DNA of 64,000 nt from positions 930,001-994,000 of the forward strand of contig NZ_VIKR01000002.1 in NCBI RefSeq assembly GCF_007004765.1, read 5' to 3'. The translations under genes and the position numbers were made by a program. The notes beneath the pieces are model-generated. The model saw only the letters and a program-made list of their open reading frames with translations. It made no database searches and was not told the origin of the DNA. Shown here piece after piece: positions 1-15,475 of this stretch; the first letter of the stretch is position 1; the number at the start of each line of letters is the position of its first letter. Source of the stretch: Aliikangiella marina. GTDB taxonomy: Bacteria; Pseudomonadota; Gammaproteobacteria; Enterobacterales; Kangiellaceae.

Positions 1-655
1 TCAGCCAGGCGCTGATATTCCCAAAGAACAAATTCTTTCTTTAATCATGGAGCCAGGTTTTTCTACAGCAGCGGTTATCAGCGACGTTTCCGGCCGTGGT
101 GTCGGAATGGATGTCGTTAAACGAAACATCAATAATTTAGGGGGGAGCGTTGAAATACACTCGGAACTCGGAGAGGGTACAACATTCACTATTAGACTTC
201 CATTAACTTTGGCAATACTTGATGGACAGTTAATTGAAGTGTCTGGTGAGGTTTATGTTGTTCCGTTAGTGTCGATTGTCGAGTCTATTCCTATGTCGAA
301 AGTTGAGGTCTCAAGAATCGCTGGCAATATGAAGGTCTATAAGATGGATGATGGCTACATCCCTATCATTGATTTGACCAGAGAGTTTCAAATTAAAGGA
401 CAATCCCCTTCAAATGAAGAGGGGCTTCTTGCGATTGTAGAAGGAGAAAATCGTAAGGTCGCGCTAGAAATCAATCAGCTTCTTGGCCAACAACAAGTGG
501 TGATTAAGAGTTTGGAGACCCACTATAAATCGATTCAAGGGGTATCCGGCGCAACAATCTTGGGTGATGGTAAAGTTGCCTTAATTTTGGATGTTGTAGG
601 CTTAGCAAGGCGAGCTTCAGAGTCTGCTGCTGGCTCGAATTCGCAAGTGGCATAA
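1..655 (+). CDS. cheA: CheA chemotaxis histidine kinase, 3' end only (che2-like cluster)
   Basis: The gene enters from outside the window and is read in the frame beginning at base 2, so only the last ~218 residues are visible. They contain the end of the GHKL ATPase domain, with an F/G-box region PGFSTA...SDVSGRGVGMDVV, followed by the CheW-like P5 regulatory domain that docks CheW and receptors. The HPt and dimerisation domains lie upstream. cheW follows after 8 bases, so it is co-transcribed with the two cheW genes, the receptor, cheR, cheD and cheB. It is distinct from the complete cheA at 27120-29390. Family assignment is secure. Assignment to a che2-type pathway is inferred from the gene order. 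Confidence 0.93.
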   Translation, partial: QPGADIPKEQILSLIMEPGFSTAAVISDVSGRGVGMDVVKRNINNLGGSVEIHSELGEGTTFTIRLPLTLAILDGQLIEVSGEVYVVPLVSIVESIPMSKVEVSRIAGNMKVYKMDDGYIPIIDLTREFQIKGQSPSNEEGLLAIVEGENRKVALEINQLLGQQQVVIKSLETHYKSIQGVSGATILGDGKVALILDVVGLARRASESAAGSNSQVA

Positions 656-663
656 AAGGTAAC

Positions 664-1218
664 ATGATGACGTCAGAAATCATTCAGCTAATTCAAGAGC
701 AAGAACCTCAAATTATTGAAGATGACATCTTTGCGGATGAAGATTCTTCACAGTACCTTAGTTTTGTTGTTGGTGAAGAAGAGTTTTCAGTAAATATTTT
801 AAAGGTACAGGAAATCAGAGCTTGGGAACATACGACGTTTTTACCGAATTCTCCGAGTTATATTAAAGGCGTGCTGAATCTGCGTGGCACTATTGTGCCT
901 GTTATGGATTTAAGAATTCGATTTGGTTTTAAAAATCCTGAATACAAACCGACTACTGCGGTAATCATTCTAAAAACAGTAGATGCTGAGCGAGAGCGAT
1001 TAATGGGGTGTATCGTTGATGCTGTTTCAGATGTGATTAATGTCGCAGAAAACGATATTAGTGAAAAGCCAGATTTTGGAAGTTCAATCGATAGCGAGTT
1101 TATTGATGGGATTATGACGGTAAACAATAGCCCAGTAACCTTGCTTAATCTTGATGCTCTATTGAACCTCGAGCTTATAGCGCATCCCTTCACCGCGCAG
1201 AAGGTGAGCAATGGCTGA
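664..1218 (+). CDS. cheW: CheW coupling protein, first copy
   Basis: A 184-residue single CheW/SH3-like domain protein that bridges CheA and chemoreceptors. The CheW fold occupies about residues 28-172, with a typical core motif NSPSYIKGVLNLRGTIVPVMDL. A ~28-residue acidic N-terminal extension precedes it. An AAAAGG ribosome-binding site at 654-659 lies 4 bases before the ATG at 664 and 7 before a second in-frame ATG at 667, so the real start may be three bases later. Its end overlaps the start of the second cheW, which indicates translational coupling. Confidence 0.93.
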   Translation: MMTSEIIQLIQEQEPQIIEDDIFADEDSSQYLSFVVGEEEFSVNILKVQEIRAWEHTTFLPNSPSYIKGVLNLRGTIVPVMDLRIRFGFKNPEYKPTTAVIILKTVDAERERLMGCIVDAVSDVINVAENDISEKPDFGSSIDSEFIDGIMTVNNSPVTLLNLDALLNLELIAHPFTAQKVSNG

Positions 1219-1717
1219 GTCACTGAGAAAAAATAGCAAAGCTGAAGCTGATGAATCTGTTGAAACTATTGAACAGTGCTTAACATTTATGGTTTCCAAT
1301 GATGAGTTTGGCCTAGATATATTAGCTGTTCAAGAAATTCATGGTTGGCTTGAGCCCAGGCCCATTCCGAATACGCCTGACTATATTAAAGGTGTAATTG
1401 ATTGGCGTGGAACGATTGTGCCAATCGTAGATCTTCGGATAAAGTTTAATTACCCACAAGCGAATTACGAAAAAACCACAGTCGTTATAATATTAAAAAC
1501 ATTTTTAAAGGAATTAGAACAGTTTGCAATTGTTGGCGTTGTTGTCGATGCTGTTTCCGATGTGGTTGACATAAAAAAACATGAGCTTAAAGACGCACCA
1601 ACGTTGGGGTCAAAAGTTGATACGGATTACATCAAAGGAATTGCAAAAGTTAATAATAAAATGACCGTTATTCTAGAGTTGCAAAAGTTAATCAATCTCG
1701 AAAACTTAGATGGGTAG
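1211..1717 (+). CDS. cheW: CheW coupling protein, second copy
   Basis: A 168-residue CheW-domain protein with core motif NTPDYIKGVIDWRGTIVPIVDL. The ATG lies inside the last codons of the preceding cheW (8-base overlap), with an AAGGTGAG ribosome-binding site just upstream. The two CheW copies are clearly related but differ over much of their length, so this is an old tandem duplication. Two CheWs beside one CheA could couple different receptors or change array stoichiometry; that is inference. These are the only free-standing cheW genes in the window, because the main che locus (25947-34568) has none. Confidence 0.93.
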   Translation: MAESLRKNSKAEADESVETIEQCLTFMVSNDEFGLDILAVQEIHGWLEPRPIPNTPDYIKGVIDWRGTIVPIVDLRIKFNYPQANYEKTTVVIILKTFLKELEQFAIVGVVVDAVSDVVDIKKHELKDAPTLGSKVDTDYIKGIAKVNNKMTVILELQKLINLENLDG

Positions 1718-1720
1718 ATT

Positions 1721-1736
1721 ACCCGTTTGATCGGGT
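1721..1736 (+). repeat. Short hairpin after cheW2
   Basis: ACCCG, loop TTTGAT, CGGGT forms a perfect 5-bp stem starting four bases after the cheW stop codon. No T-run follows, so it is not a convincing intrinsic terminator. It may stabilise the 3' end or attenuate read-through into the receptor gene. Confidence 0.3.
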
Positions 1737-1833
1737 TGGCGCTTCTGATGCTGAAATAGGTTTGAGTGGCGATAATCGCAAAGCGTTTAGTCAACCGTCA
1801 TTAATTCTAAGCGCTAGGATTGAATTTATCGTC

Positions 1834-1903
1834 TTAAAGGTTTTGATTTAAAGGTTTTGATTTAAAGTTTTTGGTTTAAAGGTATTGGTTTAAAGGTATT
1901 GAT
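1834..1903 (+). repeat. Five tandem 14-bp units, each with a Shine-Dalgarno-like core, abutting a start codon
   Basis: Five exactly abutting 14-base units of consensus TTAAAGGTTTTGAT run at 1834-1847, 1848-1861, 1862-1875, 1876-1889 and 1890-1903. The next base is the A of the chemoreceptor ATG at 1904. Units 1 and 2 are identical. Units 3-5 differ at one to three positions, and unit 3 has AAAGT instead of AAAGG. The AAAGG of unit 5 is 7 bases from the ATG, so it is the working ribosome-binding site. The other copies are tandem duplicates of it. Confidence 0.9.
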
Positions 1904-4201
1904 ATGGATACACAAGATAAATCGGAAAAAATTAAAGAGTTCGAAGGCCTTGTTGAAGCAATCCGAAAGTCGCAAGCGGTGATTGAGTTTAATATGGATG
2001 GTTCCATAATCGAAGCCAATGATTTGTTTTTGGATGCGATGGGATACACTTTAGATGAGATTAAAGGTAAGCATCATAGTATATTTGTCGAAGACGCCTA
2101 TGCAGCAAGCGAAGATTATAAATCTTTTTGGCGTAATTTAAATCAAGGTAATTTTGACTCTGGCGAGTACAAACGCAAAGATAAACGCGGTAACGATGTC
2201 TGGATTCAAGCCACCTATAATCCGGTTCTCGATAAAAAGGGAAAACCCTACAAAGTCGTTAAGTTTGCCTCTGATATTACCGAGCAAAAAAAGTTATTTC
2301 ATAGCGTCTCACGAATGCAAGCTGCCGTTGAAGGTTCGCAAACGGCTTTGATGATGGTCGATACCGATTTAAACGTGACTTACTGCAATAAAGCCACCTA
2401 CCGATTACTTAAGTTTCTAGAGCCGACCATGCAGTCGATTTGGCCTGGGTTTAAGGCTAATGAGGACTACATGATTGGTAAATGTATTGATGATTTTCAT
2501 AAAGAACCAGCACACCAGCGCAAACTACTTGGCGACCCTAAAAATTTGCCCTATAGCACTAACATTATGATTGGCGACTACACCATTCGTTTGAATGTAT
2601 GTGCGATTATTGATGCTCAAGGCAAACATGTAGGCTCCAGTCTTGAATGGGATAATATCACTGAACAGGTCGCCAATGAAAAACAAGTTGGCCGCCTTGT
2701 CTCTGCAGTGGAAGGCATGACAACTAATCTGATGATGGCCGATGCAGATGGCAATATAAATTATATGAATCCTGCTGTTGAACAGATGCTCCGAAAAAGA
2801 GAAGCGGGAATTAAAACCGTCTTACCCCATTTTGAAGTCGATAAAGTCGTCGGCTCTAACTATGATATTTTTCATAAGAATCCATCACATCAAAGAAACT
2901 TATTAAAACCTGAAAATCTTCCCTATGCGTCGGATATTCGGGTTGGTGATTTATCCTTCAAGTTAACCGCAGTCGCGCTTAAAGATAAAAGTGGAAACCA
3001 CCTAGGGTCAGCGGTCGAGTGGATCGATACCACTGAAATGGTCAATGCACAAGAGCAAGTTGAAATGCTGATTGCACAGGCATCAAGAGGGGAGCTGCGC
3101 GAAAGGCTCGATGCAGAACAATTTGACGGCTTTATGAAAAACTTATCACTGGGCATCAATTCAATGCTCGATACCATGGTTGAACCCATGGAAAATTGTC
3201 AAGGTGTACTAGAAGAGCTAGCGGCCGGAAATCTCCAGCGAAGTATGGATGGTGAGTACCATGGTGCTTTTAATCAGCTACAATCGTCAATCAATACTAG
3301 CATTGAAAACCTCCGAAATATGGTCGGTGAGATTATGGAGGCGGCGAGTCATGTTTCCACTTCTTCACGAGAAATCACTCAAGGCAATACCGACCTAAGT
3401 CAGAGAACTGAAGAGCAAGCCTCGAGTCTCGAAGAAACCGCATCGAGTATGGAGGAGCTCACCAGTACCGTTGCAGAAAATGCAGAGGCTGCCAACAAAG
3501 CGAACCGATTGTCGGTTGAAACGATGAGTCTGGCGGAAAGTGGCGGCGATGTTGTTACAGAAGCGATTTCGGCAATGAAAGATATCGATGATGCTTCACG
3601 AGAAATTTCCGATATTATTGGGGTTATCGATGAGATCGCTTTCCAAACCAATTTATTAGCCTTAAATGCTGCGGTTGAAGCTGCGCGTGCTGGAGATCAA
3701 GGTCGCGGGTTTGCGGTCGTTGCAGCTGAGGTGAGAAATCTTGCTCAACGCTCAGCAAGTGCCGCGAAAGATATTAAATCTCTGATCAAGAACAGCGTAG
3801 CAAAAGTTGAGCAGGGTAGTCAGTTGGTGAACGATTCTGGGAATAAGTTAACGGATATTGTCAGTTCGGTTAGAAATGTTGTGCAACTGGTTAAAGAAAT
3901 TTCTAATGCCAGTGAAGAGCAGTCTTCCGGGATTCAACAAATCAATCAGGCCGTGTCACAGATGGATAACATGACGCAACAAAACTCGGCATTGGTTGAG
4001 GAAGCTGCAGCATCCGCCGAGTCACTCAATGAGCAGGCAGCAAGTTTGATGGAGTTAATGAGCTTTTTCAAAACTGGTGATGAAGCTGGTGCGAAAAGTG
4101 AAGAAATTAAATCGCCGTTAAAAACTAAACCGACTCGTCGAGCAACTTCATCGCCAAAGTCCATGAGCGCTCCAAGCGATGATGAGTGGGAAGAGTTTTA
4201 G
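1904..4201 (+). CDS. Soluble PAS-PAS-PAS methyl-accepting chemotaxis receptor with C-terminal WEEF tether
   Basis: A 765-residue receptor with no membrane segment, so it should be cytoplasmic. PAS 1 is at about residues 10-130. PAS 2 (140-265) and PAS 3 (270-385) are related copies sharing an FHKxPxHQRxLL motif. A HAMP-like linker is at about 390-480 and the signalling hairpin at 490-735, with a canonical tip near residues 577-617 ([17 protein letters not shown]). The last residues, DEWEEF, match the CheR/CheB docking pentapeptide of P. aeruginosa McpB/Aer2 (GWEEF). With cheR, cheD and cheB next in the operon, the tether probably recruits this cluster's own methyltransferase. The ligand is unknown. 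Confidence 0.93.
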
Positions 4202-4232
4202 AAGCCTAAAAGAGTAGTGAGTTGTAGCGTAC

Positions 4233-5066
4233 ATGGTCATTGAAACCGGACATAGACGAGAGTTCGATTTTAGCGATGAAAACTTTCGACATGTCAGAGC
4301 TTTAATCAATCAATTAGCTGGTATCACACTATCAGAGCGCAAAACTGATATGGTCTATGCCAGGTTAGCCAGGAGACTCCGCGCTTTAGGCTATAGTGAC
4401 TTTGACTCTTACTTAGCCTTTGTCGAAAACGATGAGCATGAGAGTGTACATTTTACGAATTCTTTAACCACCAATTTGACGCATTTTTTTCGAGAAAGTC
4501 ATCATTTTGATTATTTAGCAGATGTTTATTTTCCTGAGATACTGAGTCAAGGTAAAAAGCGAATTCGCATTTGGTCTGCCGGTTGCTCGACCGGGGAGGA
4601 ACCTTATAGTTTGGCGATTACTTGGCGCTCTAGAGTGAAAGATGCGCATCGCTACGATTTTAAGATATTGGCAACCGACTTGGATACGAATGTTCTGGAT
4701 GTTTGTCGCCAAGGCTTGTATGCCAAAGACAAAGTGATGCAACTGGATGATGAGTATCAGCAGTGGTTTAGAGCGACCAAAAGGTGCAACTCGCAACAGA
4801 TGGAAGTTTTTCCAAAATTACGCGAACAGATCGTGTTTAAACAACTTAATCTGATGGATGAATGGCCAATAAAGGGGCCGTTAGATGTCATTATATGCAG
4901 AAATGTTTTGATTTATTTTGATAAGCCGACTCAGCAAAAATTGGTTAATCGATTTGCGCAGCTATTAAGTGATAGGGGCTGTTTGATACTTGGTCATTCA
5001 GAAAATTTGAGTGCTAATAAAAATATGTTTGAGTCCATTGGGCAAACTACTTTTAGGAAGAGTTAG
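4233..5066 (+). CDS. cheR: CheR chemoreceptor glutamate methyltransferase
   Basis: A 277-residue SAM-dependent methyltransferase that methylates glutamates of chemoreceptors for adaptation. It has an N-terminal all-alpha CheR domain (about 10-90) and a Rossmann domain with SAM motif IWSAGCSTGEEPYS at 113-126. CRNVLIYFD, typical of the family, follows later. It lies 31 bases after the receptor gene and 3 bases before cheD. The receptor's C-terminal WEEF suggests CheR docks there through its beta-subdomain, as in tethered systems (inference). Confidence 0.95.
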   Translation: MVIETGHRREFDFSDENFRHVRALINQLAGITLSERKTDMVYARLARRLRALGYSDFDSYLAFVENDEHESVHFTNSLTTNLTHFFRESHHFDYLADVYFPEILSQGKKRIRIWSAGCSTGEEPYSLAITWRSRVKDAHRYDFKILATDLDTNVLDVCRQGLYAKDKVMQLDDEYQQWFRATKRCNSQQMEVFPKLREQIVFKQLNLMDEWPIKGPLDVIICRNVLIYFDKPTQQKLVNRFAQLLSDRGCLILGHSENLSANKNMFESIGQTTFRKS

Positions 5067-5069
5067 CGA

Positions 5070-5705
5070 ATGACAGTAGGGTACGACAGAGACAATCTAC
5101 CATCTTGCTGGCAAGAGTTTAACCACATTAATCGGTATTGGGACAGAAAGATTGGCAAACCCACCGCTAAGCTTTTGCCTGGGGAGTACTATGTCACCAG
5201 TCACGACGAAGTCATTACAACAGTTTTAGGTTCCTGCATTTCTGCCTGCATACGCGACCCGATTTGTGGAATCGGCGGAATGAACCATTTTATGCTGCCG
5301 ATTCAAGTGGACAATGCTTTGAGTACTGATTTTGGTCGAGCCGAGCGCTACGGCAACTATGCTATGGAGCAGCTGATCAATGATATTTTAAGAAATGGCG
5401 GCAGAAGAGAAAACATGGAGGTTAAAATATTTGGTGGTGGTCGGGTGATGAAGGGAGTGACGGATGTCGGAGCGAAAAATATTGAGTTTGTAAAACATTA
5501 TTGCGAGCTAGAGGGTTTTCAGGTACTGGCGGAAGATGTCGCAGGGAACTATCCTCGGAAAGTGAATTACATTCCAAAAACCGGAAAAGTGTTTGTTAAG
5601 AAATTATATAGTAAACACAACGACACTATTGAAACACGCGATGAAAACTATTTTGAGAAAATTTCTAATAGAGATGTCAGCGGCAATGTCGAGCTTTTTG
5701 ATTAG
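5070..5705 (+). CDS. cheD: CheD chemoreceptor glutamine deamidase
   Basis: A 211-residue deamidase that converts specific receptor glutamines to glutamate and can interact with CheC-type phosphatases. The catalytic pair is visible: C56 in LGSCIS and H73 in GGMNHFMLP. The glycine-rich KIFGGGRVM segment is also typical. It is slightly longer than minimal CheD proteins because of a ~30-residue N-terminal extension. The start is supported by an AGGAAGAG-like site in the end of cheR. CheD in this position is characteristic of che2-type clusters. Confidence 0.93.
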   Translation: MTVGYDRDNLPSCWQEFNHINRYWDRKIGKPTAKLLPGEYYVTSHDEVITTVLGSCISACIRDPICGIGGMNHFMLPIQVDNALSTDFGRAERYGNYAMEQLINDILRNGGRRENMEVKIFGGGRVMKGVTDVGAKNIEFVKHYCELEGFQVLAEDVAGNYPRKVNYIPKTGKVFVKKLYSKHNDTIETRDENYFEKISNRDVSGNVELFD

Positions 5706-5713
5706 ATTTGATT

Positions 5714-5782
5714 AGGCTCGGTGTGACCAGATTAAAAAAGATAAATAAGGTTTGCTCAAGTGAGGTAAGTCGAGGCTCGGTG
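5714..5782. repeat. Direct repeat AGGCTCGGTG, two copies
   Basis: AGGCTCGGTG occurs at 5714-5723 and again at 5773-5782 in the 119-base gap between cheD and cheB. No palindrome or known regulator motif is evident. It could be a regulatory pair or a chance or duplication remnant. Confidence 0.35.
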
Positions 5783-5824
5783 ATTAAATTAGCGACAGTG
5801 GCAATTGTTTAAGATTAAAGATAG

Positions 5825-6886
5825 ATGAATAAATTCAGTAAGAATAAAAATGTGATAAAAGTCTTGGTTGTGGATGACTCGGCTTTTATTAGGGTTCTGT
5901 TAACAGAAATTCTGGATTCGGACCCTGATATCAGTGTTGTTGCATCTGCTTCTGATCCAATTGATGCGCGCTCTAAAATCAAAAAGTACAATCCTGATGT
6001 GATTACGCTTGACATCGAAATGCCCAAAATGGACGGCTTAACTTTTTTAAGAAAAATCATGCGGCTTAGGCCAATGCCCGTAGTAATGTTCTCCACGCTG
6101 ACCCAAAAGGGCGCCGACATAACCTTTGAAGCACTTAAAATCGGTGCCGTCGATTTTGTACCGAAACCCGCCGTAGATATTAAAAATAATCTCGATAGTT
6201 TAAGAAGCGAGCTCATTGAGAAGGTTAAATGTGCGGCTGTTAGTAACATCGGAATCAAAGATTCAACCGCTCACCAAAGCACTTCGCCTATCGATTTACC
6301 GGAGTCATCTAAGAAAGTTGATTTAATAGCTATCGGCGCATCTACTGGAGGTACAGAGGCAATTTTAGCGGTGATTCGGCGGATGCCAACCAATTGTCCA
6401 CCGATTGTAATGGCACAACACATTCCAGATGTATTTTCGACTTCATTTGCCAAACGCTTGAATGAAGAAGTTGCTCTACATGCCAAAGAGGTGAGGGATT
6501 CGACAGTTTTAGAACCGGGTAATGCGTACCTTGCGCCTGGACATATGCATATGGTGGTTAAAAAGCGAGGCGGACAGCTTTGGGTGAAGATGGATGATAG
6601 TCCACCAGTGAATCGACACAAACCATCCGTTGACATGCTATTTAAATCAATTTCGCAAATAGATGGGGTGAATTGTTTAGCGGCTATCCTTACTGGAATG
6701 GGTAAAGATGGAGCAGAAGGGTTGTTAGAATTAAAACAAAAAGGAGCCTTTACGATTGCTCAAGACGAGAGAACATCGGTTGTCTGGGGTATGCCTGGTG
6801 CGGCAGTCGGCATGGGGGCGGTTAAGGCGGTCCTACCGTTACAAGAAATAGCACCTAATCTCGTAAAGAGATTGGGTGGGCGCTAA
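5825..6886 (+). CDS. cheB: CheB receptor methylesterase/deamidase response regulator (che2-like cluster)
   Basis: A 353-residue protein with an N-terminal receiver (about 12-130, phospho-acceptor D63, acidic pair D17/D18) and a C-terminal methylesterase domain (165-350). The catalytic residues are S173 in GASTGG, H199 in QHIP, and an aspartate in TGMGKDGAEG. It removes receptor methyl groups when phosphorylated by CheA and closes the adaptation loop with cheR and cheD upstream. It is a paralogue of the CheB at 29410-30522 and differs in linker length and sequence. A 119-base gap separates it from cheD. Confidence 0.95.
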   Translation: MNKFSKNKNVIKVLVVDDSAFIRVLLTEILDSDPDISVVASASDPIDARSKIKKYNPDVITLDIEMPKMDGLTFLRKIMRLRPMPVVMFSTLTQKGADITFEALKIGAVDFVPKPAVDIKNNLDSLRSELIEKVKCAAVSNIGIKDSTAHQSTSPIDLPESSKKVDLIAIGASTGGTEAILAVIRRMPTNCPPIVMAQHIPDVFSTSFAKRLNEEVALHAKEVRDSTVLEPGNAYLAPGHMHMVVKKRGGQLWVKMDDSPPVNRHKPSVDMLFKSISQIDGVNCLAAILTGMGKDGAEGLLELKQKGAFTIAQDERTSVVWGMPGAAVGMGAVKAVLPLQEIAPNLVKRLGGR

Positions 6887-6997
6887 AAAAAGTTAGTCAA
6901 AACTGTTTGTTTCATCTATGCTTATTTTAGGTATGTTTATGTAATATCACCTGAGATAACAAGGATTTATTGCGAATTAATTAAAAAGGGGCATAGC

Positions 6998-7300
6998 ATG
7001 TCAGTAGGTTCTAGTCTTTCACCGGATGGGAAAGTACTTACTATTTCAATCAATGGCCGGTTCGACTTTAGCGCGCACCAAGCCTTTAGGGATTCTTATG
7101 AAAAACTGATTCCCACACCATCGGAAATCGTTATTGATATGGTTGATACCACTTATCTTGACAGCTCTGCACTCGGTATGTTGCTGTTATTGAGGGATCA
7201 CGCTGGAGGCGACACTTCCAATATCGAACTCAAAAATTGTAATGAAGACATAAAAAAAATACTCACTATTTCAAACTTCGAGCAACTATTTAAAATTTAA
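6998..7300 (+). CDS. STAS-domain anti-anti-sigma factor (HsbA/CrsA-like)
   Basis: A 100-residue single STAS domain. The motif YLDSSALGMLLLLRD places the phosphorylatable serine at S56 (or S57), the usual SpoIIAA/RsbV site. An AAAAAGGGG ribosome-binding site precedes the ATG. In the family the unphosphorylated form sequesters an anti-sigma factor. In Pseudomonas HsbA binds FlgM, and in Shewanella CrsA controls RpoS. The next gene encodes a kinase/phosphatase of the matching type with a 5-base gap, so the two should form a partner switch. Which sigma factor is controlled cannot be read from the sequence. Confidence 0.88.
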   Translation: MSVGSSLSPDGKVLTISINGRFDFSAHQAFRDSYEKLIPTPSEIVIDMVDTTYLDSSALGMLLLLRDHAGGDTSNIELKNCNEDIKKILTISNFEQLFKI

Positions 7301-7305
7301 TCGCT

Positions 7306-9003
7306 TTGAAGATACTAATCGCTGATGATAACCATGTAGAGCGCCTGATTTTGTCTCGGGTGCTCGAAGCCGAAGGTCATCATGTCATTCAAGCAGAAAC
7401 TGGAACTCAAGCGATTGATTACTACTTTGAACAATCTCCTTCACTCGTATTTCTCGATATTTTAATGCCTGACATCGATGGTTACGATGTCGCTTCTGCC
7501 ATCAAGAAAAAAGGTCAAGAATCTCGGTGGATTCCAATCATATTTTTAACTTCCTTAACTGACGCTTATGACTTGGCAAAATGCATTGAGGTTGGCGGTG
7601 ATGACTTTGTTTCCAAGCCGATCAATCGAATCATCATCAAAGCTAAAGTTGACGCCTTTGCGCGGATTTCCAGATTATATGAAACTATTGAAACCCAAAA
7701 AACAGAAATTCAATATCACAATGAGCACCTGATTCAGGAGCAAGAGGCAGCGAAAAAAATCTTTAATAACATTGCCCACAGAGGATGCCTGGCCGCGCAA
7801 AATATCAACTATCATTTATCGCCAATGTCTATTTTTAATGGCGATTTAATGCTCGCAGCTGAAACGCCAATGGGGGGAATGCGACTGATGCTCGCTGATT
7901 TTACTGGGCATGGACTGCCGGCTGCGATTGGGGCGATGCCCACTTCAGAGATTTTTTACGGTATGACACGCAAAGGCTTTGCGATAGCTGATGTGATGAC
8001 AGAGATGAATTCTCGACTGTACTCCGTCTTGCCAAGAGGGATATTTTGCTGCGTAATTATAGCTGACATTGATGCACTTGAAGAACGAATAACAATATGG
8101 AATGCTGGCGCTCCGCAAGCCTACATTCTTAATCAAGAAAGTGGCGAAATTGATCTGGTTCATTCAAATCACTTACCGCTCGGTGTGCAAACTCCGGAGC
8201 GATTTAAAGTGGAACTTAAAGTGTTAAATTTTAGCGCCAGTCATAAATTGCTTGCCATCACTGATGGAATTGTGGAGTCAGTTAATACCGAGTCTGAGAT
8301 GTATGGCGAAGAAAGAATGTTAGACTTTATTCGAGCCAATATTAAATCCGATAATCTTTGCGATTCATTAGTTGAGCAAGTTGTCGAGTTTACGGGTGAT
8401 GTTGATCAAGGCGATGATTTAAGCCTCTTAGAAGTCGGTTTTCCACACCACCACTTAGATAAATCGATTGTCGATGCAGAAGAAGTCAAAGCGCAAACTG
8501 GAACGCTAGACTCTAACCTTTCCTTGTCGCTTCGCGGAAAGTCGTTGGGTAAGTTTGACCCTATACCGCTATTTTTACAGACGCTGCTTGAGTGCAGGGA
8601 GTTAACGCCGCACCGTTCACGAATTTTTACGGTTTTGTCAGAATTATATAATAATGCCTTGGAGCACGGCGTGCTTGGACTAGACTCGGCGATAAAACAC
8701 GATAGTGAAGGGTTCGCAAACTACTATCATCAACGAAGTGATAAGCTGGCTAATTTGAAAGATGGCCAAGTTACAGTGCAAATTGATCATAGACCGCTGA
8801 ACGATGGTGGGGAGATAGTTTTTGATTTTATTGATAGCGGCGAGGGGTTTGATTTTGAGAAAGCGATTGCTCGAGGTAGTCAAACATACAGCGGCAGAGG
8901 TATACCGTTAATTATTAATCTATGTGAGTCAGTAGATTTTCTTGAAGATGGCAGGCATGTTCGCGCTGTGTATCGATGGTATGATGAGCAAGACGCAGAA
9001 TAA
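7306..9003 (+). CDS. Receiver-PP2C-HATPase partner-switching regulator (HsbR/CrsR/RsbU type)
   Basis: 565 residues starting at TTG, 5 bases after the STAS stop, so translation is probably coupled. Domains are: receiver (1-120, phospho-acceptor D51), a coiled helix (130-165), a SpoIIE-type PP2C phosphatase (about 165-375), and a GHKL anti-sigma-type kinase domain (425-560). PP2C metal-binding signatures NGDLML, ADFTGHGLPAA, TDGIVES and GDDLSL are intact. The kinase domain has ELYNNALEHG and GRGIPLI. By analogy with HsbR and CrsR it both phosphorylates and dephosphorylates the STAS protein, switched by receiver phosphorylation. The input kinase or HPt is inferred to be the neighbouring HPt. Confidence 0.88.
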   Translation: MKILIADDNHVERLILSRVLEAEGHHVIQAETGTQAIDYYFEQSPSLVFLDILMPDIDGYDVASAIKKKGQESRWIPIIFLTSLTDAYDLAKCIEVGGDDFVSKPINRIIIKAKVDAFARISRLYETIETQKTEIQYHNEHLIQEQEAAKKIFNNIAHRGCLAAQNINYHLSPMSIFNGDLMLAAETPMGGMRLMLADFTGHGLPAAIGAMPTSEIFYGMTRKGFAIADVMTEMNSRLYSVLPRGIFCCVIIADIDALEERITIWNAGAPQAYILNQESGEIDLVHSNHLPLGVQTPERFKVELKVLNFSASHKLLAITDGIVESVNTESEMYGEERMLDFIRANIKSDNLCDSLVEQVVEFTGDVDQGDDLSLLEVGFPHHHLDKSIVDAEEVKAQTGTLDSNLSLSLRGKSLGKFDPIPLFLQTLLECRELTPHRSRIFTVLSELYNNALEHGVLGLDSAIKHDSEGFANYYHQRSDKLANLKDGQVTVQIDHRPLNDGGEIVFDFIDSGEGFDFEKAIARGSQTYSGRGIPLIINLCESVDFLEDGRHVRAVYRWYDEQDAE

Positions 9004-9029
9004 ATCGCAGAATAAAAAGGAGGTTACTA

Positions 9030-9371
9030 GTGTCAGAGCTACTGGACGAGCAAGTTGTTAATGAATTAAAAGATATCATGGGCGATGATCTTGGGGTCCT
9101 GATGGAAACTTTTATCACCGACTCTCATGATAAAATTAATGAACTCGAGAGTATCATTTATGGCGCTGATAATGACGCGATCCGACGGCTAGCGCACAGC
9201 TTGAAGGGCAGTAGCAAAAACATTGGTGCCAATCAATTGGCGGATAAATGTGAAAGATTAGAACACGATGCACGAAATGAAAAACTCGGTGATAGGCAGG
9301 CTTATTTTGATGCGATCTGCGAATCTTTCGATCTCACTAAGACAGGAATAGAAGGTCTCTTGCAAAGCTAG
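9030..9371 (+). CDS. Stand-alone HPt phosphotransfer protein
   Basis: A 113-residue HPt domain with the phospho-histidine motif AHSLKGSS, H56. The GTG start is chosen because an unusually strong AAAAAGGAGGT ribosome-binding site ends 5 bases before it. It follows the REC-PP2C-HATPase gene by 26 bases. A stand-alone HPt normally relays phosphate between a hybrid kinase and a response regulator, and the receiver of the preceding protein is the obvious candidate. The kinase that feeds it is not identified. The hybrid kinase at 60521-62698 carries its own receiver but no HPt, so it is one possible donor. Confidence 0.85.
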   Translation: MSELLDEQVVNELKDIMGDDLGVLMETFITDSHDKINELESIIYGADNDAIRRLAHSLKGSSKNIGANQLADKCERLEHDARNEKLGDRQAYFDAICESFDLTKTGIEGLLQS

Positions 9372-9521: not shown

Positions 9522-11081
9522 ATGGTTAACTCCGGTGCGACGGGTTTCTTGTTTGAAACACGGCCAAAAGCTTCACACACCATTGGCTTAATCGAGAGCC
9601 AGTCTAATAACGATATGCAGAACAATAAGTTAGAGAGTGAAAATGGTGGTAACTCATTTGCAATGGTATTTGACCAATCGGTAATCGGTCAGATTAAACC
9701 GGGTGCAAAGCATGAGAAAGGTCGGTTTGATGTCATTGATGAGCCAGTTTTCTTAGAGTCAGACATTGCCGCAAGCAACGGCAATAAATTGCCTTCCGAT
9801 GGTACAAGCGAGTTAGTCGCAGGCAATTCGGTATTCAATCTTGGCGGAAACAATAGTATCTCAGGTGGTCCAGAAATCGATATTGGACCCAAACCCTTCG
9901 ACTGGGTTATTCCGATAAAGGGTAATGGCGGGGAAGCTTCGTTAAGTGAGTTTGATATCACGCCGAAACCGTTAGAAATCGTTCAGCATCGAGAAGGTTT
10001 TCTTGCTAACCCGCCGAGCGACTTAAATCTTTCATTTGAGAACGCCGCAAATAGTATATTTCCGACTGATGATATTTTTAGCCAGATCGAAAGTCGTTCA
10101 TTTACAATGATAGCCTTTCAAGGATTCAGTCAAGATGATTTAAGCAGTGGAAATCAGAAAAAAGGCGACTTCAACTTTTCAGCAAGTCACTTATTATCGA
10201 GCAACGAGTCGCTCTCGGTTGTAGATAAATCTTTGAAGAACAAGCTATTTGAAAGTTTATCGCTTGGAGAACGCTTTAAGCTATCGAAAGACATTATTAA
10301 TGGCAGTGACTTAGCATCCGGTAAAGCCAATTTGGGAAAGTCGAATTTGGATTTAGTCAATGAAAAATTCGCTAACTTAACTATGTCGCAAGAGTCAGAG
10401 TCATTCTTAGCCGGTAAAAAAGGCCTGCTTAACTCAAATAGCTTTTCAGAAAAATTCTTGAGCGATTTATCAAGTCTTAAACCTCTGGTCTCGAGTAAGG
10501 CGAATGGACTCGGTGCTAATGCAACGACAATTGGTTTGTCCGGATTATTGTCTAGCAGTGCGAGTGGCGAGCCGGTGACTTATTCTAATGCACTTTCCAG
10601 TCAGGCTGTGGGTTTGGAAGCGAGCGAAGCCGCTAAAACACTGTTGTTGTCAAGCAACTCTCAATTTAGTCAAGGGCTCAATCTTAAAAGTCATTTTACG
10701 CCAAATTTGGCGATGCGAATTCAGTGGATGTTTAATCGAGCTGTTAATAGTGCCGAAGTCATGATGGATCCGCCGGAACTCGGCCCGATGACCGTGAAAA
10801 TTCAGCAAACTAATGGTGAAACTCAGGTGATGTTTCAGGTGAATAATCCGCAAACAAAGGATGCGCTAGAATCAAATCTCGATAAGTTGAAAATGTTATT
10901 ACAAGAACAAGGTATAAACTTGGGCGACGCACAGGTGGAACAACAAAAGAGTCAAAATGATAGTCATTCGCAGAAAAAGCAGGATGCACAACAAGAGCAG
11001 GAGACTGTTGCCGAGATTGCACCAGATAAATCGAATCATCAAAATGTTATATTAGATTCGATAGTCGATGTTTATTCATAA
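9522..11081 (+). CDS. fliK: FliK flagellar hook-length control protein
   Basis: A 519-residue protein with a long, low-similarity, Ser/Asn-rich N-terminal region and the conserved C-terminal Flg_hook domain at about residues 390-480 (core MDPPELGPMTVKIQ). The C-terminal domain contacts FlhB to switch export specificity from hook to filament; the N-terminal part acts as the ruler. A Gln/Lys-rich tail follows (about 485-505). It is transcribed from its own sigma-54 promoter. In most polar-flagellate gammaproteobacteria fliK adjoins fliL, but here a three-gene minus-strand block separates them. Confidence 0.92.
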   Translation: MVNSGATGFLFETRPKASHTIGLIESQSNNDMQNNKLESENGGNSFAMVFDQSVIGQIKPGAKHEKGRFDVIDEPVFLESDIAASNGNKLPSDGTSELVAGNSVFNLGGNNSISGGPEIDIGPKPFDWVIPIKGNGGEASLSEFDITPKPLEIVQHREGFLANPPSDLNLSFENAANSIFPTDDIFSQIESRSFTMIAFQGFSQDDLSSGNQKKGDFNFSASHLLSSNESLSVVDKSLKNKLFESLSLGERFKLSKDIINGSDLASGKANLGKSNLDLVNEKFANLTMSQESESFLAGKKGLLNSNSFSEKFLSDLSSLKPLVSSKANGLGANATTIGLSGLLSSSASGEPVTYSNALSSQAVGLEASEAAKTLLLSSNSQFSQGLNLKSHFTPNLAMRIQWMFNRAVNSAEVMMDPPELGPMTVKIQQTNGETQVMFQVNNPQTKDALESNLDKLKMLLQEQGINLGDAQVEQQKSQNDSHSQKKQDAQQEQETVAEIAPDKSNHQNVILDSIVDVYS

Positions 11082-11151: not shown

Positions 11152-13143
11152 TTAGAATAAGTCGACACCACTGGAGGAGGATTTTTCCTCTTCTTTTTCG
11201 ACCAGTTCACTTTCAACATCGTTAAGCGTGAATTCCAAATAGCTGGTCACATCTGATATTTTTTCGGCAATATTTTCCGCATCCATGTTTTTTTCATCTT
11301 GCGCCTTGATAATATTCTCGATTATTGACGTGATATAGGCTTCCTGTTCTTCAGTCATATCGAGCGTATGAAAACTCATGCCCAGTTCTATACTGATTTT
11401 TTCGAGGATGTCATTTTGATCTTGGGCTTTGTGGTTAATCATTTCGGATAATTCGCCGGTCAGCTCTTTGAGTTTATCAAACACTGAGTTCATCGCCCAC
11501 TTGCGAATAAGGTCTTTGTACCTGGCTTCCAGCCCCTCGATAACCACCGCAATATAATCTCTCACTCGGCCGTGCTCTTCTGAAGAGCTTGGCATATTTT
11601 TTACTAAAATAGAGACGTGCTGATCGTTGACAATTGTTCTAGAGCCGAAGTCGAAAAGCCGACCTTTTTGGAGTAAAAGCTCGAAGACATTAATTTCATT
11701 TGGACTGCACATTGTCATATCTTGTTTATAGCTACTGATAACATCATTATTCCTGAACTGGATTGAGCAGTTCAGTTGCTTTTGCTCTGTAAATTTAAAA
11801 ATCTCACTGGCTAATTCGAGTTCGCTATGACAGTGAAACATGTTTTTAAACAGGTGAACGACATCTCCATATTGCGCGGCTTCCTTCATTGATTGTTGGG
11901 CAATTTCTTGGGCGCTGTCTACACTGCTCTGAAGTTGAAGGCGCTTCTTCTGATAGGAAACGACCCGACCAATTTTGGCAACTAGCTCGATGATTGAAAT
12001 TGGACGAGTAAGGATATCTAAGCCATCCGCTTCAAATGCTTCAAGTTGTACGTCTAGGTCGTTTGATTCAGTGGTAAAAATGGTATTAAATTCACAATGG
12101 TTAAGGGATTGCATTTCTTTGACAAATTCTGGGCCTGTCATATCTTGAAGCACCATGTCAACAACCAGAATGTTCGGCGAAAAGGCTTCAAATAAAATTC
12201 GCGCTTCGTGACAGTTTTCGGTAATGTAGACATCATATCTTTCACCCAATGATTCAACGAGTAGGTTCCTCAGTGAAGGATCGGGTTCGACTATGAGAAT
12301 TTTTTCTCGTGTAATTTCAACTGCACAATCCCAGTTGTCTGTATTCGTCAGAAAGTCTTCGTAAAATGATTGACGCGCGCATGGTCCACCAAAAAAGAAC
12401 CCTTGTGCGGTGTCACAGTTTTGCTTCAGTAGCCAATCTGCCGTAGCCTGTGTTTCGACACCGACTGCAACTGCTCGCATTCCATATTTATCCGCAATGT
12501 AGAGCGCTTCTTTGACCGTATCTCTAGATTTTTCGAGCGCATGAATTGATGAAGTAATTTGTCGATGGACTTTGATCTCATCGATTGGCAGCTTACTGAG
12601 GACCTTTTCACTAAACGAATTCACGCCAAAATCGTCCAGTGAGAATTTGAATCCAGCTTGTCGCAGTGCAAGCATACCCGTGTTTAAATCTTCTTCCAAT
12701 TCACTATCGCTACTTTGGGAAACTTCTATCACCAGGTTTTGTGGCGCGACATTTTTCTGCTGAAATGAATTGATGAGAAAAGTAGTAAACTGCTCACTTT
12801 TTAATAAAATTGTTTCAATATTGATCGAAACATGCATTTGTAATCCATTTTTTTCCCACAAAGTGAGATCAGCGATTACTTGGTCAATAATAACTTTGGC
12901 AAGCTCTAATGAGAGACCTAAATCGGTGATTTTCTCAAGGAATAAGTTGGGTGTGAGCACACCATATTTTGGGTGGTTTAGGCGAATGAATGCTTCGGCC
13001 CCAGTCATTTGTTTTTGATTAACGAGAGATACTTGTGGTTGGTAGTAGACTTCAAATTGATTAGCCGCGAACGCTTGTTTTATCGACTCAGCATCAATCG
13101 TCACTATAAGTCCTTCGCCTTGTTTATGGTGCATTGTTGTCAT
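11152..13143 (-). CDS. EAL-REC protein with degenerate catalytic residues and a long helical C-terminus
   Basis: 663 residues. An EAL domain (about 15-270) is followed by a receiver (280-395) and ~265 residues of mainly helical sequence ending in an acidic/Ser tail and VDLF. In the EAL domain the metal ligands look kept (E50 in EAFIR, N108, E140, D170/D171, Q247). The usual KID is KVH (191-193), AEGVE is AVGVE (226-230), and the loop after DDFG is not GTGYSS-like. The receiver keeps D329 but has R380 in place of the invariant lysine. It may therefore bind rather than hydrolyse c-di-GMP and may not switch by phosphorylation (inference). Domain order is the reverse of RocR-type REC-EAL proteins. 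It is last in the minus-strand insert, 60 bases after the ODP gene. Confidence 0.85.
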   Translation of the reverse strand: MTTMHHKQGEGLIVTIDAESIKQAFAANQFEVYYQPQVSLVNQKQMTGAEAFIRLNHPKYGVLTPNLFLEKITDLGLSLELAKVIIDQVIADLTLWEKNGLQMHVSINIETILLKSEQFTTFLINSFQQKNVAPQNLVIEVSQSSDSELEEDLNTGMLALRQAGFKFSLDDFGVNSFSEKVLSKLPIDEIKVHRQITSSIHALEKSRDTVKEALYIADKYGMRAVAVGVETQATADWLLKQNCDTAQGFFFGGPCARQSFYEDFLTNTDNWDCAVEITREKILIVEPDPSLRNLLVESLGERYDVYITENCHEARILFEAFSPNILVVDMVLQDMTGPEFVKEMQSLNHCEFNTIFTTESNDLDVQLEAFEADGLDILTRPISIIELVAKIGRVVSYQKKRLQLQSSVDSAQEIAQQSMKEAAQYGDVVHLFKNMFHCHSELELASEIFKFTEQKQLNCSIQFRNNDVISSYKQDMTMCSPNEINVFELLLQKGRLFDFGSRTIVNDQHVSILVKNMPSSSEEHGRVRDYIAVVIEGLEARYKDLIRKWAMNSVFDKLKELTGELSEMINHKAQDQNDILEKISIELGMSFHTLDMTEEQEAYITSIIENIIKAQDEKNMDAENIAEKISDVTSYLEFTLNDVESELVEKEEEKSSSSGVDLF

Positions 13144-13203
13144 AGAAGCTTCCTGTCTCTATATAGGTTGTCGGCTAATCGATAAATTCCTTTAATAATT
13201 ACG

Positions 13204-13941
13204 TTATTTATTGCTGGCTAGACCAACATCCAGGCGTTCAAACCAATTTAAGAAATTATCGACCTGCTCTCCTTTGAAGATTGATCCGTGTTGGGGAGCC
13301 ATAATTTCTATGTCGAGTTTTCTGACACGCGCAATCCACTCATCTTTAGCGCGATTTGAAGGCATCCAACGGCGATGAAAATATTCCATTTTTGGGATGT
13401 GTTCTTCAAAGTCTTCAACAAAAAAAGGCGAGTCTATATCGTCCATTGCAGCACCGACATCCCCACTCATCAGTATTTTGGCACGTTTATCGTAGACATG
13501 AAAATTACCAGACGAGTGGAGGTAGTGGGCTGGAACGAAGTCGAGCTCGATGCCATCTAAATTATATTTTCCACCTTCGTCTGAAATTCCCTCAAAATTT
13601 ATGTTGTTCATACCAAAGTGACGAATGAAAGTTTCCCATATTTTGGGTGAGTATAAACTCGCATTATTGAGGCACTGATCCCACAAACCCAAGGAAGAAA
13701 TAATATCGGGATCTTGATGGGAAGCAAATAAGGCTTTTATGTCATCTATTTTGGTGTAGCGCAAGACTGAAGTGAGCATTTGAGAGAAAATCTCAATTCC
13801 CCCGGGATCTAAGATAATACTGTGATTATTGTTAGTGATCATATACTGGTTAGTGTCGATAATTTTTTCGGCTTTGTCTGGATCTCTTCCAAAGCACAGC
13901 CATTGATGTTTGCCTTGTTGATAGAGTGAGATAGCCTTCAT
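13204..13941 (-). CDS. ODP-type di-iron oxygen-binding protein (metallo-beta-lactamase fold)
   Basis: A 245-residue metallo-beta-lactamase-fold protein related to the di-iron domain of flavodiiron proteins, without the flavodoxin domain. Likely ligands are H75-x-D77-x-D79 (HQDPD), H142 (YLHSSGN), D161 (MSGDVG) and H218 (APQHG). Stand-alone ODPs of this type bind Fe and O2, and in Treponema denticola one acts as the oxygen sensor for chemotaxis. Here it sits between a chemoreceptor-tip-like gene (upstream, 43 bases) and the EAL-REC gene (downstream), inside the flagellar cluster, which supports a sensory role. A plain hydrolase is the alternative. Confidence 0.85.
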   Translation of the reverse strand: MKAISLYQQGKHQWLCFGRDPDKAEKIIDTNQYMITNNNHSIILDPGGIEIFSQMLTSVLRYTKIDDIKALFASHQDPDIISSLGLWDQCLNNASLYSPKIWETFIRHFGMNNINFEGISDEGGKYNLDGIELDFVPAHYLHSSGNFHVYDKRAKILMSGDVGAAMDDIDSPFFVEDFEEHIPKMEYFHRRWMPSNRAKDEWIARVRKLDIEIMAPQHGSIFKGEQVDNFLNWFERLDVGLASNK

Positions 13942-13984
13942 TTCCTGGTCCTTTGATTATTATATTGAGTTAAATTGGGTTTGA

Positions 13985-14596
13985 TTAGGGACGTAATTTA
14001 ATTAGACTCTTGCGAGCATTTTCCAAGTGTTGATTGATTCTATTGCCAGCATTGGATACTTTATCGGCGACTGAATTAAGCGATTCTTGAAAGTCCTTAC
14101 TCGCACGAACGGACTCCACTCGAGAGACCACCGAAACAACTTGAGTTGCACGTAACTCGAGTTTTGTCTCGTCTAAACTATCGATAAGTTCTTTAAGTTT
14201 TGAGTTAATCTGATTTTTTAGTTTTTCAGCGTTAGCTTGAATTCGAGAATAAATGGGCAAGATTTGTTGTTTTTGTTCGGCTTCCGAATCAGATTGAACG
14301 GTATCCAGCATTGCGAGTAGCGAGTAGGTTCGAAACAGTTCATTAGCGGATTTCGTTTGCGTAGTGGCTATTCCACTGACCGTCTCTGCAGCATCAATAG
14401 TTAGTGTTGATAGCCCTTCTATAAAGCGTGTAATTTCATTAAAACCTGCGGCTGTACTTCCAGCCCTGACAGCCAACGCACGGGCATTTTTTGAGATAAT
14501 GGAAAGCTCGACTGCTATTGATTGAGCTCGGGATAGTTCAGATGCAACATTGGCTACGGAAATAAATGTTTCTGCCGCTTTTTGTTTGTTATTCAT
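13985..14596 (-). CDS. Small soluble helical protein resembling a chemoreceptor signalling tip
   Basis: 203 residues, predicted almost wholly helical, with no membrane segment or sensor domain. Residues ~38-68 (NARALAVRAG, STAAGF, then EITRFIEGLS) can be aligned by eye with the receptor hairpin tip ([10 protein letters not shown], xx[14 protein letters not shown]): N, RAG and GF are kept, while the tip glutamate and an arginine are lost. I infer a truncated, divergent chemoreceptor-like module that could receive the ODP signal and contact CheA/CheW or the EAL-REC protein. It is first in the three-gene operon. Without the alignment it would be a hypothetical coiled-coil protein. Confidence 0.7.
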   Translation of the reverse strand: MNNKQKAAETFISVANVASELSRAQSIAVELSIISKNARALAVRAGSTAAGFNEITRFIEGLSTLTIDAAETVSGIATTQTKSANELFRTYSLLAMLDTVQSDSEAEQKQQILPIYSRIQANAEKLKNQINSKLKELIDSLDETKLELRATQVVSVVSRVESVRASKDFQESLNSVADKVSNAGNRINQHLENARKSLIKLRP

Positions 14597-14962: not shown

Positions 14963-15475
14963 ATGGCTGAAGACGACCAAGACTTAGAACTCGATGTCGA
15001 AGAAGAAGAAGAAGGCAAAGGCGGTAAAGGCAAGTTAATTATTATTGCCGCTGTCGTCGTCCTGCTTATCGGCGGTGTGGCTGCCTTTTTCTTATTGAGT
15101 GGAGATTCTGATTCATCACAAGACGAAGCGGCTGAAGAACAAGTTGAGCCAAAAGAGCCCGCACAATATGTCGGTGTTCCTGAAGCGATTACAAGCAATA
15201 TTAAAGGTGACCGACGAAATCGAACTGTTCAGATAAAAATGTCATTTATGGTTCGTGGAGATGAGGCGGTCGATATTGTTAAGTCTCACATGCCACAACT
15301 GAAAAATGATGTGTTGATGTTGGTTAGTCAACAAACGGTAGAAGAGCTCAAAACGCCGGAAGGACGGAAAATGTTGCAAGATAAGTCACTCGAGACAGTG
15401 CAAAAATCACTGACAGACTTAGTCGGCGAGCCGGTTATTGAAAGAGTTTTATTTATTAGCTTTTTAATGCAGTAA
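14963..15475 (+). CDS. fliL: FliL flagellar basal-body/stator-associated protein
   Basis: 170 residues: a short acidic cytoplasmic tail, one membrane segment at about 25-46, an acidic linker, and a periplasmic FliL domain (70-170). FliL surrounds stator units and supports torque. An ACGGAG ribosome-binding site precedes the ATG. It is the first gene of the sigma-54-driven operon and is followed by fliM 6 bases later. Confidence 0.93.
   Translation: MAEDDQDLELDVEEEEEGKGGKGKLIIIAAVVVLLIGGVAAFFLLSGDSDSSQDEAAEEQVEPKEPAQYVGVPEAITSNIKGDRRNRTVQIKMSFMVRGDEAVDIVKSHMPQLKNDVLMLVSQQTVEELKTPEGRKMLQDKSLETVQKSLTDLVGEPVIERVLFISFLMQ

Follow-up and report, generated by a model that had tools for sequence, protein, structure and literature searches.

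A receptor-tip-like protein paired with an ODP-type di-iron protein at the fliK-fliL junction of Aliikangiella marina

Gene Organization at the fliK-fliL Junction

Here, we focus on a group of minus-strand genes in a stretch of 64,000 nucleotides from the gammaproteobacterium Aliikangiella marina (contig NZ_VIKR01000002.1, positions 930,001 to 994,000; hereafter the window). A sequence-only reading of this DNA had described three genes between the flagellar genes fliK and fliL as one oxygen-sensing module. They encode a chemoreceptor-tip-like protein (working name TIP), an ODP-type di-iron protein and a protein with a degenerate EAL domain and a REC domain (EAL-REC). The open reading frames (ORFs), coordinates and domain calls hold, with gaps of 43 bp between TIP and ODP and 60 bp between ODP and EAL-REC. 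The conserved unit, however, is two genes, TIP and ODP, and not three. The features at the junction are as follows.

9522-11081, plus strand: fliK (PF02120, 8e-23)
11152-13143, minus strand: EAL-REC protein, 663 residues, with a degenerate EAL domain (19-254), a REC domain (282-391) and a C-terminal region that is an unnamed family
13204-13941, minus strand: ODP, 245 residues, short subfamily (PF19583, E 1.4e-74; 6qrq, 1.3e-65; 6qnm, 2.2e-63)
13985-14596, minus strand: TIP, 203 residues, a helical protein with two chemoreceptor-tip-like hairpins in a single chain
14963-15475, plus strand: fliL (PF03748, 2e-21)

The two flagellar genes had been taken to be normal neighbours. This was compared in eight stretches around the F7-type chemosensory cluster (described below) of genomes that carry TIP, three of which ended before the junction. 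It holds in four relatives (G005, G009, G011 and G039), whose TIP-ODP genes are located elsewhere, and fails in G002, where an AraC/GyrI-like gene (L260:9911-10774) lies between fliK and fliL. Since G002 holds another gene there, genes have entered this junction on more than one occasion. With fliK-fliL closed in four relatives and flanks that vary by lineage, a flagellar location was rejected as a rule for TIP-ODP, and the proposed link to flagellar gene position is not supported; both this position and the EAL-REC gene are specific to the window's lineage.

Conservation of the TIP-ODP Pair

The close sample comprised 61 genomes (the window's own and 60 relatives) with 31 full-length ODPs, one being the window's. 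The other 30 loci divide into 18 with a short ODP (244-255 residues) and 12 with a longer one (264-318 residues, by longest ORF). TIP is the gene immediately before ODP in 17 short-ODP loci, and the eighteenth (L045) has TIP coding sequence in broken frames, while TIP stands beside none of the 12 longer ODPs. No EAL-REC match (blastp, E 1e-4) was found at any of the 30 loci, 28 of them reaching 1 kb past the ODP gene and the other two stopping no more than 350 bp beyond it. Thus, as far as was searched, the three families never co-occur elsewhere and the pair recurs; the three-gene module was rejected as a conserved unit, EAL-REC being missing at the other ODP loci and its nearest homologues being unlinked. 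The longer ODPs without TIP (L040, L043, L046-L048, L052-L056, L058 and L059) form a second ODP subfamily, which occurs in the same family.

Across 295 genomes of the order, a TIP profile gave strong matches (E < 1e-30) in 20, each with a short ODP as the next gene; in addition, G048 has a 78-residue TIP fragment that ends at a contig end, with the ODP position beyond view. Short ODPs occur in 22 of these 295 genomes, all 22 with TIP, two of the TIPs being divergent (6e-8 and 3e-11). When named genomes were ranked by ODP similarity, the best 80 of 572 relatives, which overlap with the other samples (e.g. L126, G003), included 79 loci with TIP as the next gene on the upstream side of ODP and in the same orientation; the one without it (L189) has 736 bp available upstream. 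By longest ORFs, the two genes touch or overlap in 33 of the 79 (22 by exactly 4 bp) and lie within 70 bp of each other in 76. The partnership of ODP with a receptor-like protein, which the sequence-only reading had modelled on Treponema denticola, is therefore far stronger than it had suggested. Among these best 80 loci are some from other gammaproteobacterial groups and one from a metagenome-assembled genome labelled Acidobacteria, and the genes that flank the pair vary between lineages.

In a wider sample, strong TIPs occur in four of 339 genomes of the phylum, and all four belong to this order; 20 ODP loci from the phylum sample yielded one divergent TIP (G403, L352), 17 ODPs without TIP and two loci with no ODP called. 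A tblastn search with the single window protein returned no close TIP relative in viral contigs. TIP and ODP distances correlate with a rho of 0.31 over 74 loci, which gives no support for tight co-evolution. In two genomes of one genus (L112:8090-9727 and L113:8442-10067), TIP-ODP is preceded on its own strand, at a distance of about 0.7-0.9 kb, by an ORF of 541-545 residues with a weak TIP-profile match, a probable methyl-accepting chemotaxis protein (MCP).

The ODP and Its Ligand Set

The window ODP matches PF19583 over the whole profile (positions 1-194; 250.6 bits against a cut-off of 27.2), and it matches the solved ODPs 6qrq and 6qnm at the E-values given above. The four ligand motifs named by the sequence-only reading are all present.

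13705-13719, minus strand: HQDPD, ODP residues 75-79
13510-13521, minus strand: LHSS, ODP residues 141-144
13453-13467, minus strand: SGDVG, ODP residues 159-163
13285-13296, minus strand: PQHG, with the glutamine of the unusual ODP ligand set, ODP residues 216-219

The sites HQDPD, SGD and PQHG and the histidine-serine pair have aligned counterparts in 6qrq and 6qnm; the window protein has HQDPDI and PQHG where the solved structures have HQDPDV and PQHG. In the Thermotoga maritima ODP, as described in passages of PMC7785958, a motif-2 histidine of the flavodi-iron proteins is replaced by a glutamine at motif 5. HQDPD-I and PQHG of the window fit this ligand set, and we read the glutamine of PQHG as that glutamine. 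The family is related to flavodi-iron proteins, and the window member stands alone, its 245 residues holding only the ODP/Lactamase_B domain and no flavodoxin domain. By these alignments the window protein is a true ODP, for which iron and oxygen binding are predicted.

ODP fused to a C-terminal GGDEF-like stretch was found in distant members of the phylum, in ORFs of 592-970 residues (L346:2287-4800, L347:1338-3116, L348:1512-3296, L349:2751-4550, L350 and L351; Pfam GGDEF for L348, the others read by eye). Like the window, these proteins have ODP as sensor input; unlike it, they have a diguanylate cyclase domain fused and belong to other lineages.

TIP as a Tandem Receptor-Tip Protein

TIP does not exceed the cut-off of any Pfam or NCBIfam family, and its likeness to chemoreceptor tips comes from profile comparison, which agrees with the sequence-only reading. 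Each half was aligned by hhalign with 14 MCP segments of its own genome, two of them probably from one gene.

14333-14575, minus strand: TIP N half, residues 8-88 (probability 96.8, 67 columns)
14003-14224, minus strand: TIP C half, residues 125-198 (probability 89.9)

In permutation controls, the two halves scored above every shuffle, both against the receptor-tip hairpin and against each other. Both also match MCP receptors in a profile search of the PDB, which from E 0.0096 returned designed or unrelated helical proteins as well. With L122, a divergent homologue, the MCPsignal match reaches 3.8e-7 (30.5 bits, below the curated cut-off of 34.6). Column counts over 72 TIPs show how the halves differ. 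The N half keeps the equivalents of Tsr N381, R388, G390, G395 and F396 and has lost that of E385, whereas the C half keeps E385 and has lost N381 and R388. The strongest conservation in TIP falls on receptor-tip positions, N37 and G46 being invariant in all 72.

An AlphaFold2 model of TIP (pLDDT 89.4) has helices at residues 2-103, 106-164 and 167-199 and fits four-helix bundles. Foldseek with this model returned nothing at E <= 0.001, with MCP entries among the matches listed at 0.13 (9a69) and 0.38 (3zx6). Because helical bundles match one another widely, fold likeness alone is no proof of kinship. Altogether, TIP resembles a receptor-tip dimer that is fused into one chain and asymmetric. 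At 203 residues overall, it has neither the long coiled coil with methylation helices nor the sensing input of a receptor.

Relation to Known Systems

Coupling of an ODP to an MCP-type receptor is already known. In T. denticola, the ODP (TDE2498) is coupled to the MCP homologue TDE2496 (Muok 2019, cited in passages of PMC7666581), which is described there as having no transmembrane or sensing modules and as able to modulate CheA. Like the window, T. denticola has an ODP gene of the same family with the same ligands and a receptor-type gene; TDE2496, however, is called an MCP homologue, whereas the window TIP has two tip hairpins in one chain of 203 residues and does not match MCPsignal. Muok et al. 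(2019), as cited in passages of the 2020 TREND paper (PMC7319448), reported ODP fusions as well as operons that combine ODP and MCP genes, with two groups of ODPs and two orders. DosM of the Vibrio cholerae F9 arrays, described in passages of PMC7534058, resembles TIP in having two signalling units per chain. DosM spans two CheA/CheW layers of the F9 array, whereas the hairpins of TIP are modelled side by side in one bundle, and TIP does not have the full-length MCPsignal domains that span two CheA layers. What is taken as new is a partner consisting of tandem tips only, its almost perfect pairing with short ODPs and its association with F7 systems: no description of them was found in mostly open-access literature, and the tables of Muok et al. 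may list such loci.

An Accessory F7-Type Chemosensory Cluster

A second chemosensory cluster lies between fliJ and fliK, nested in the flagellar operon, and covers window positions 1-9371 and L207:2842-5656. Its CheA, of 706 residues, begins before the window (L207:3536-5656). Within the window, the cluster consists of the following.

2-655, plus strand: 3' end of the accessory (F7-type) CheA, with Hpt, H-kinase_dim, HATPase_c and CheW domains
664-1218 and 1211-1717, plus strand: two cheW genes (PF01584, 1.8e-33 and 1.1e-33)
1904-4201, plus strand: PAS-HAMP-MCP receptor in an Aer2-like position (Pfam PAS, HAMP_2, MCPsignal)
4233-5066, plus strand: cheR (PF01739, 3.3e-63)
5070-5705, plus strand: cheD (PF03975, 7.6e-29)
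5825-6886, plus strand: cheB (PF01339, 3.6e-59)
6998-7300, plus strand: STAS protein (STAS_2, 1.3e-11)
7306-9003, plus strand: REC-SpoIIE-HATPase protein (SpoIIE, 2.2e-36)
9030-9371, plus strand: Hpt protein (Hpt, 6.7e-16)

The full order is STAS, CheY, CheA, CheW, CheW, PAS-HAMP-MCP receptor, CheR, CheD, CheB, STAS, REC-SpoIIE and Hpt. Stage 1/2 F7 systems are given, in passages of PMC7184735 (Ortega 2020), as STAS-cheY-cheA-cheW-cheW-receptor-cheR-cheD-cheB-STAS-phosphatase. The window and L207 share this order, except that an mcpA-like gene between cheB and STAS is missing and an Hpt gene is added; TIP-ODP is not named in those passages. The gene order fits an F7 system of stage 1; the CheAs were grouped by similarity class. 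The F9 system, considered for its low-oxygen cytoplasmic arrays, was dropped as a partner, the gene order fitting F7. Passages of PMC7184735 and PMC7534058 state that the role of the ancestral F7 arrays of gammaproteobacteria is unclear. The Che1 cluster of Shewanella oneidensis, discussed as an F7 array in passages of PMC9855816, carries the CrsR/CrsA partner switch for RpoS.

Across genomes, TIP tracks this type of system. At a cut-off of E <= 1e-165, picked with the table in view, a close F7-type CheA is present in 16 of 22 genomes with TIP and in 26 of 203 TIP-less genomes that have CheA (p 5e-9). Stratified over three clades (58 genomes, 11 with TIP), it is found in nine of the 11 (p 2e-5). 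As far as the stretches reached, 17 of 20 che loci from TIP-carrying genomes have the order cheY-cheA-cheW(-cheW)-mcp-cheR(-cheD)-cheB; the exceptions are G039, with the receptor before cheY, G143, with no recognised cheY in front, and G052, which differs.

Sequences Upstream of TIP

Of 77 TIP genes, six have an exact FNR box in the 250 bp upstream, compared with two of 598 other genes of the same loci; with one mismatch allowed, the counts are 13 of 77 and 28 of 598. The control genes are not all operon starts, which may lower their count. The six exact boxes stand 71-195 bp before the TIP start (L153, L164, L192, L193, L201 and L202). In 78 TIP upstream regions, sigma-54, Fur and ArcA-like patterns were within or hardly above the range of five shuffles; sigma-28 (32 versus 17-23 in shuffles) and NsrR-like patterns (10 versus 4-7) were slightly over, at five to six mismatches allowed. 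The own promoter claimed for the operon of the window was not borne out: one sigma-70-like minus-strand site (14655-14628) matches at nine of 12 positions, and two sites were found versus 5.3 expected from shuffles.

A Proposed Mechanism and Its Alternatives

In the explanation we favour, ODP would bind iron and oxygen at its di-iron site and sense the O2 or iron state. TIP, a single chain with two tandem tip hairpins, would fold into a bundle of four helices and so imitate a receptor dimer's signalling tip, though with unequal halves. It would take its place beside the receptor tips of a chemosensory array, most likely the accessory F7 array. There, the state of ODP would alter CheA activity via TIP, in parallel to the PAS receptor of the array. 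In the window, the pair would have relocated to a site beside the F7 genes, within the flagellar operon, with EAL-REC as a lineage-specific third neighbour. The gene pair and its conservation, the tandem tip homology, the ODP ligand set and the co-occurrence with F7-type CheA are observed, whereas iron and oxygen binding by this ODP, its contact with TIP, the entry into an array, the choice of F7 over F6 and the effect on CheA are inferred. For the explanation as a whole, with TIP-ODP as a mobile two-gene oxygen/iron input module, the chances stand at about half. The pair, carried by many marine bacteria, probably feeds oxygen information into a chemosensory array, and a two-gene input that tracks F7 arrays makes their role testable through two small genes.

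The usual view is that receptor tips act as symmetric dimers grouped into trimers. More tentatively, and with doubt outweighing confidence, TIP may be a new class: a soluble, single-chain, asymmetric tip pseudo-dimer that would enter F7 trimers in a fixed orientation via complementary trimer-contact residues (N/R in one half, E in the other), so that a cytoplasmic iron-oxygen sensor gates the ancestral F7 kinase directly, with O2/Fe(II) as an input besides the PAS receptor. If true, such a natural tip, fused and asymmetric and with a separable sensor, would offer a way to study the control of CheA from one dimer position.

Several observations weigh against the mechanism we favour. The window TIP has no MCPsignal (PF00015) match at E up to 1, and both halves of the 72 TIPs have lost the V398- and E402-type tip positions, which we take to be CheW/CheA-binding sites; TIP may for these reasons not engage CheA/CheW. 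DSSP gives residues 2-103 of the model as one helix, so the N hairpin rests on fold matches and not on the helix list. A close F7-type CheA is present in 26 genomes without TIP, and at a loose CheA cut-off the link weakens to 21 of 22 versus 82 of 203 (stratified pooled p 8e-4; within-clade p 0.03, 0.08 and 0.25), both cut-offs having been chosen after the table was seen and the classes being classes of similarity. First neighbours in most of the best 80 named loci are unrelated genes and not che, in a scan covering 76 of 155 first neighbours. No FNR box lies upstream of the window TIP. Outside the order, 17 of 18 called-ODP loci have neither TIP nor an MCP-profile neighbour, six of the 17 being fusions.

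The lack of an MCPsignal match and the split of the tip residues, with E385 lost in one half and N381/R388 in the other, also suit a different role, in which TIP would be a dedicated ODP scaffold or inhibitor, or a decoy that breaks up receptor trimers, and no part of an array. ODP, given its flavodi-iron relatives, might then scavenge O2, peroxide or NO. A mere scaffold would not need the conservation of tip positions, among them the invariant N37 and G46, and the ODP has no flavodoxin domain for turnover, which makes this role rather improbable.

Alternatively, TIP-ODP might feed the main F6 flagellar array in ordinary aerotaxis, with the F7 link reflecting shared lifestyle only. T. denticola has only a single CheA and uses ODP in chemotaxis (passages of PMC7666581). 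With two or more CheA matches in 21 of 22 TIP-carrying genomes, another array is available, and the 26 TIP-less genomes with a close F7-type CheA fit this view as well. Within the three clades, however, where all compared genomes have CheA, TIP tracks the close F7-type CheA, and we regard the F6 route as unlikely. The co-occurrence points to the array of the accessory F7 system and away from the main flagellar array. Of the two outputs named by the sequence-only reading, CheA or a cyclic diguanylate (c-di-GMP) effector, the first is plausible and the second weak.

The EAL-REC Gene and c-di-GMP

EAL-REC keeps eight of eleven compared EAL positions. The other three are Q143, H193 and V227, aligned with positions that we take to be catalytic and that are E, D and E in 17 of 19 compared EAL domains; the two exceptions are EAL-REC's own homologues, in which the same three positions are lost. 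The EAL domain is thus degenerate, as had been claimed, and because these residues replace near-invariant E, D and E, EAL-REC probably binds c-di-GMP without catalytic activity. The closest homologues of EAL-REC occur in G003 (43%, C-terminal part), where TIP-ODP sits on a different contig, and in G006 (39%), where no ODP was detected in a genome 82% complete. EAL and GGDEF domains occur in 16 of 434 near neighbours of TIP-ODP versus 10 of 700 genes further away (p 0.02, uncorrected for eight related Pseudoalteromonas loci), and a c-di-GMP circuit as general output was set aside as weak. A three-gene route, in which the O2 state would pass from ODP through TIP to EAL-REC as c-di-GMP effector, draws on the shared strand, the short gaps, the retained and lost EAL positions and the ODP-GGDEF fusions of other lineages, and is highly improbable given the 30 ODP loci with no EAL-REC match, the unlinked homologues and the weak enrichment. 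The C-terminal region of EAL-REC (window 11155-11946, minus strand) recurs in shorter REC proteins, in frames mostly of 373-422 residues (e.g. L265:8206-9369 and L270:1111-2253), which have no curated Pfam family beyond REC and two of which stand beside F7-type che genes.

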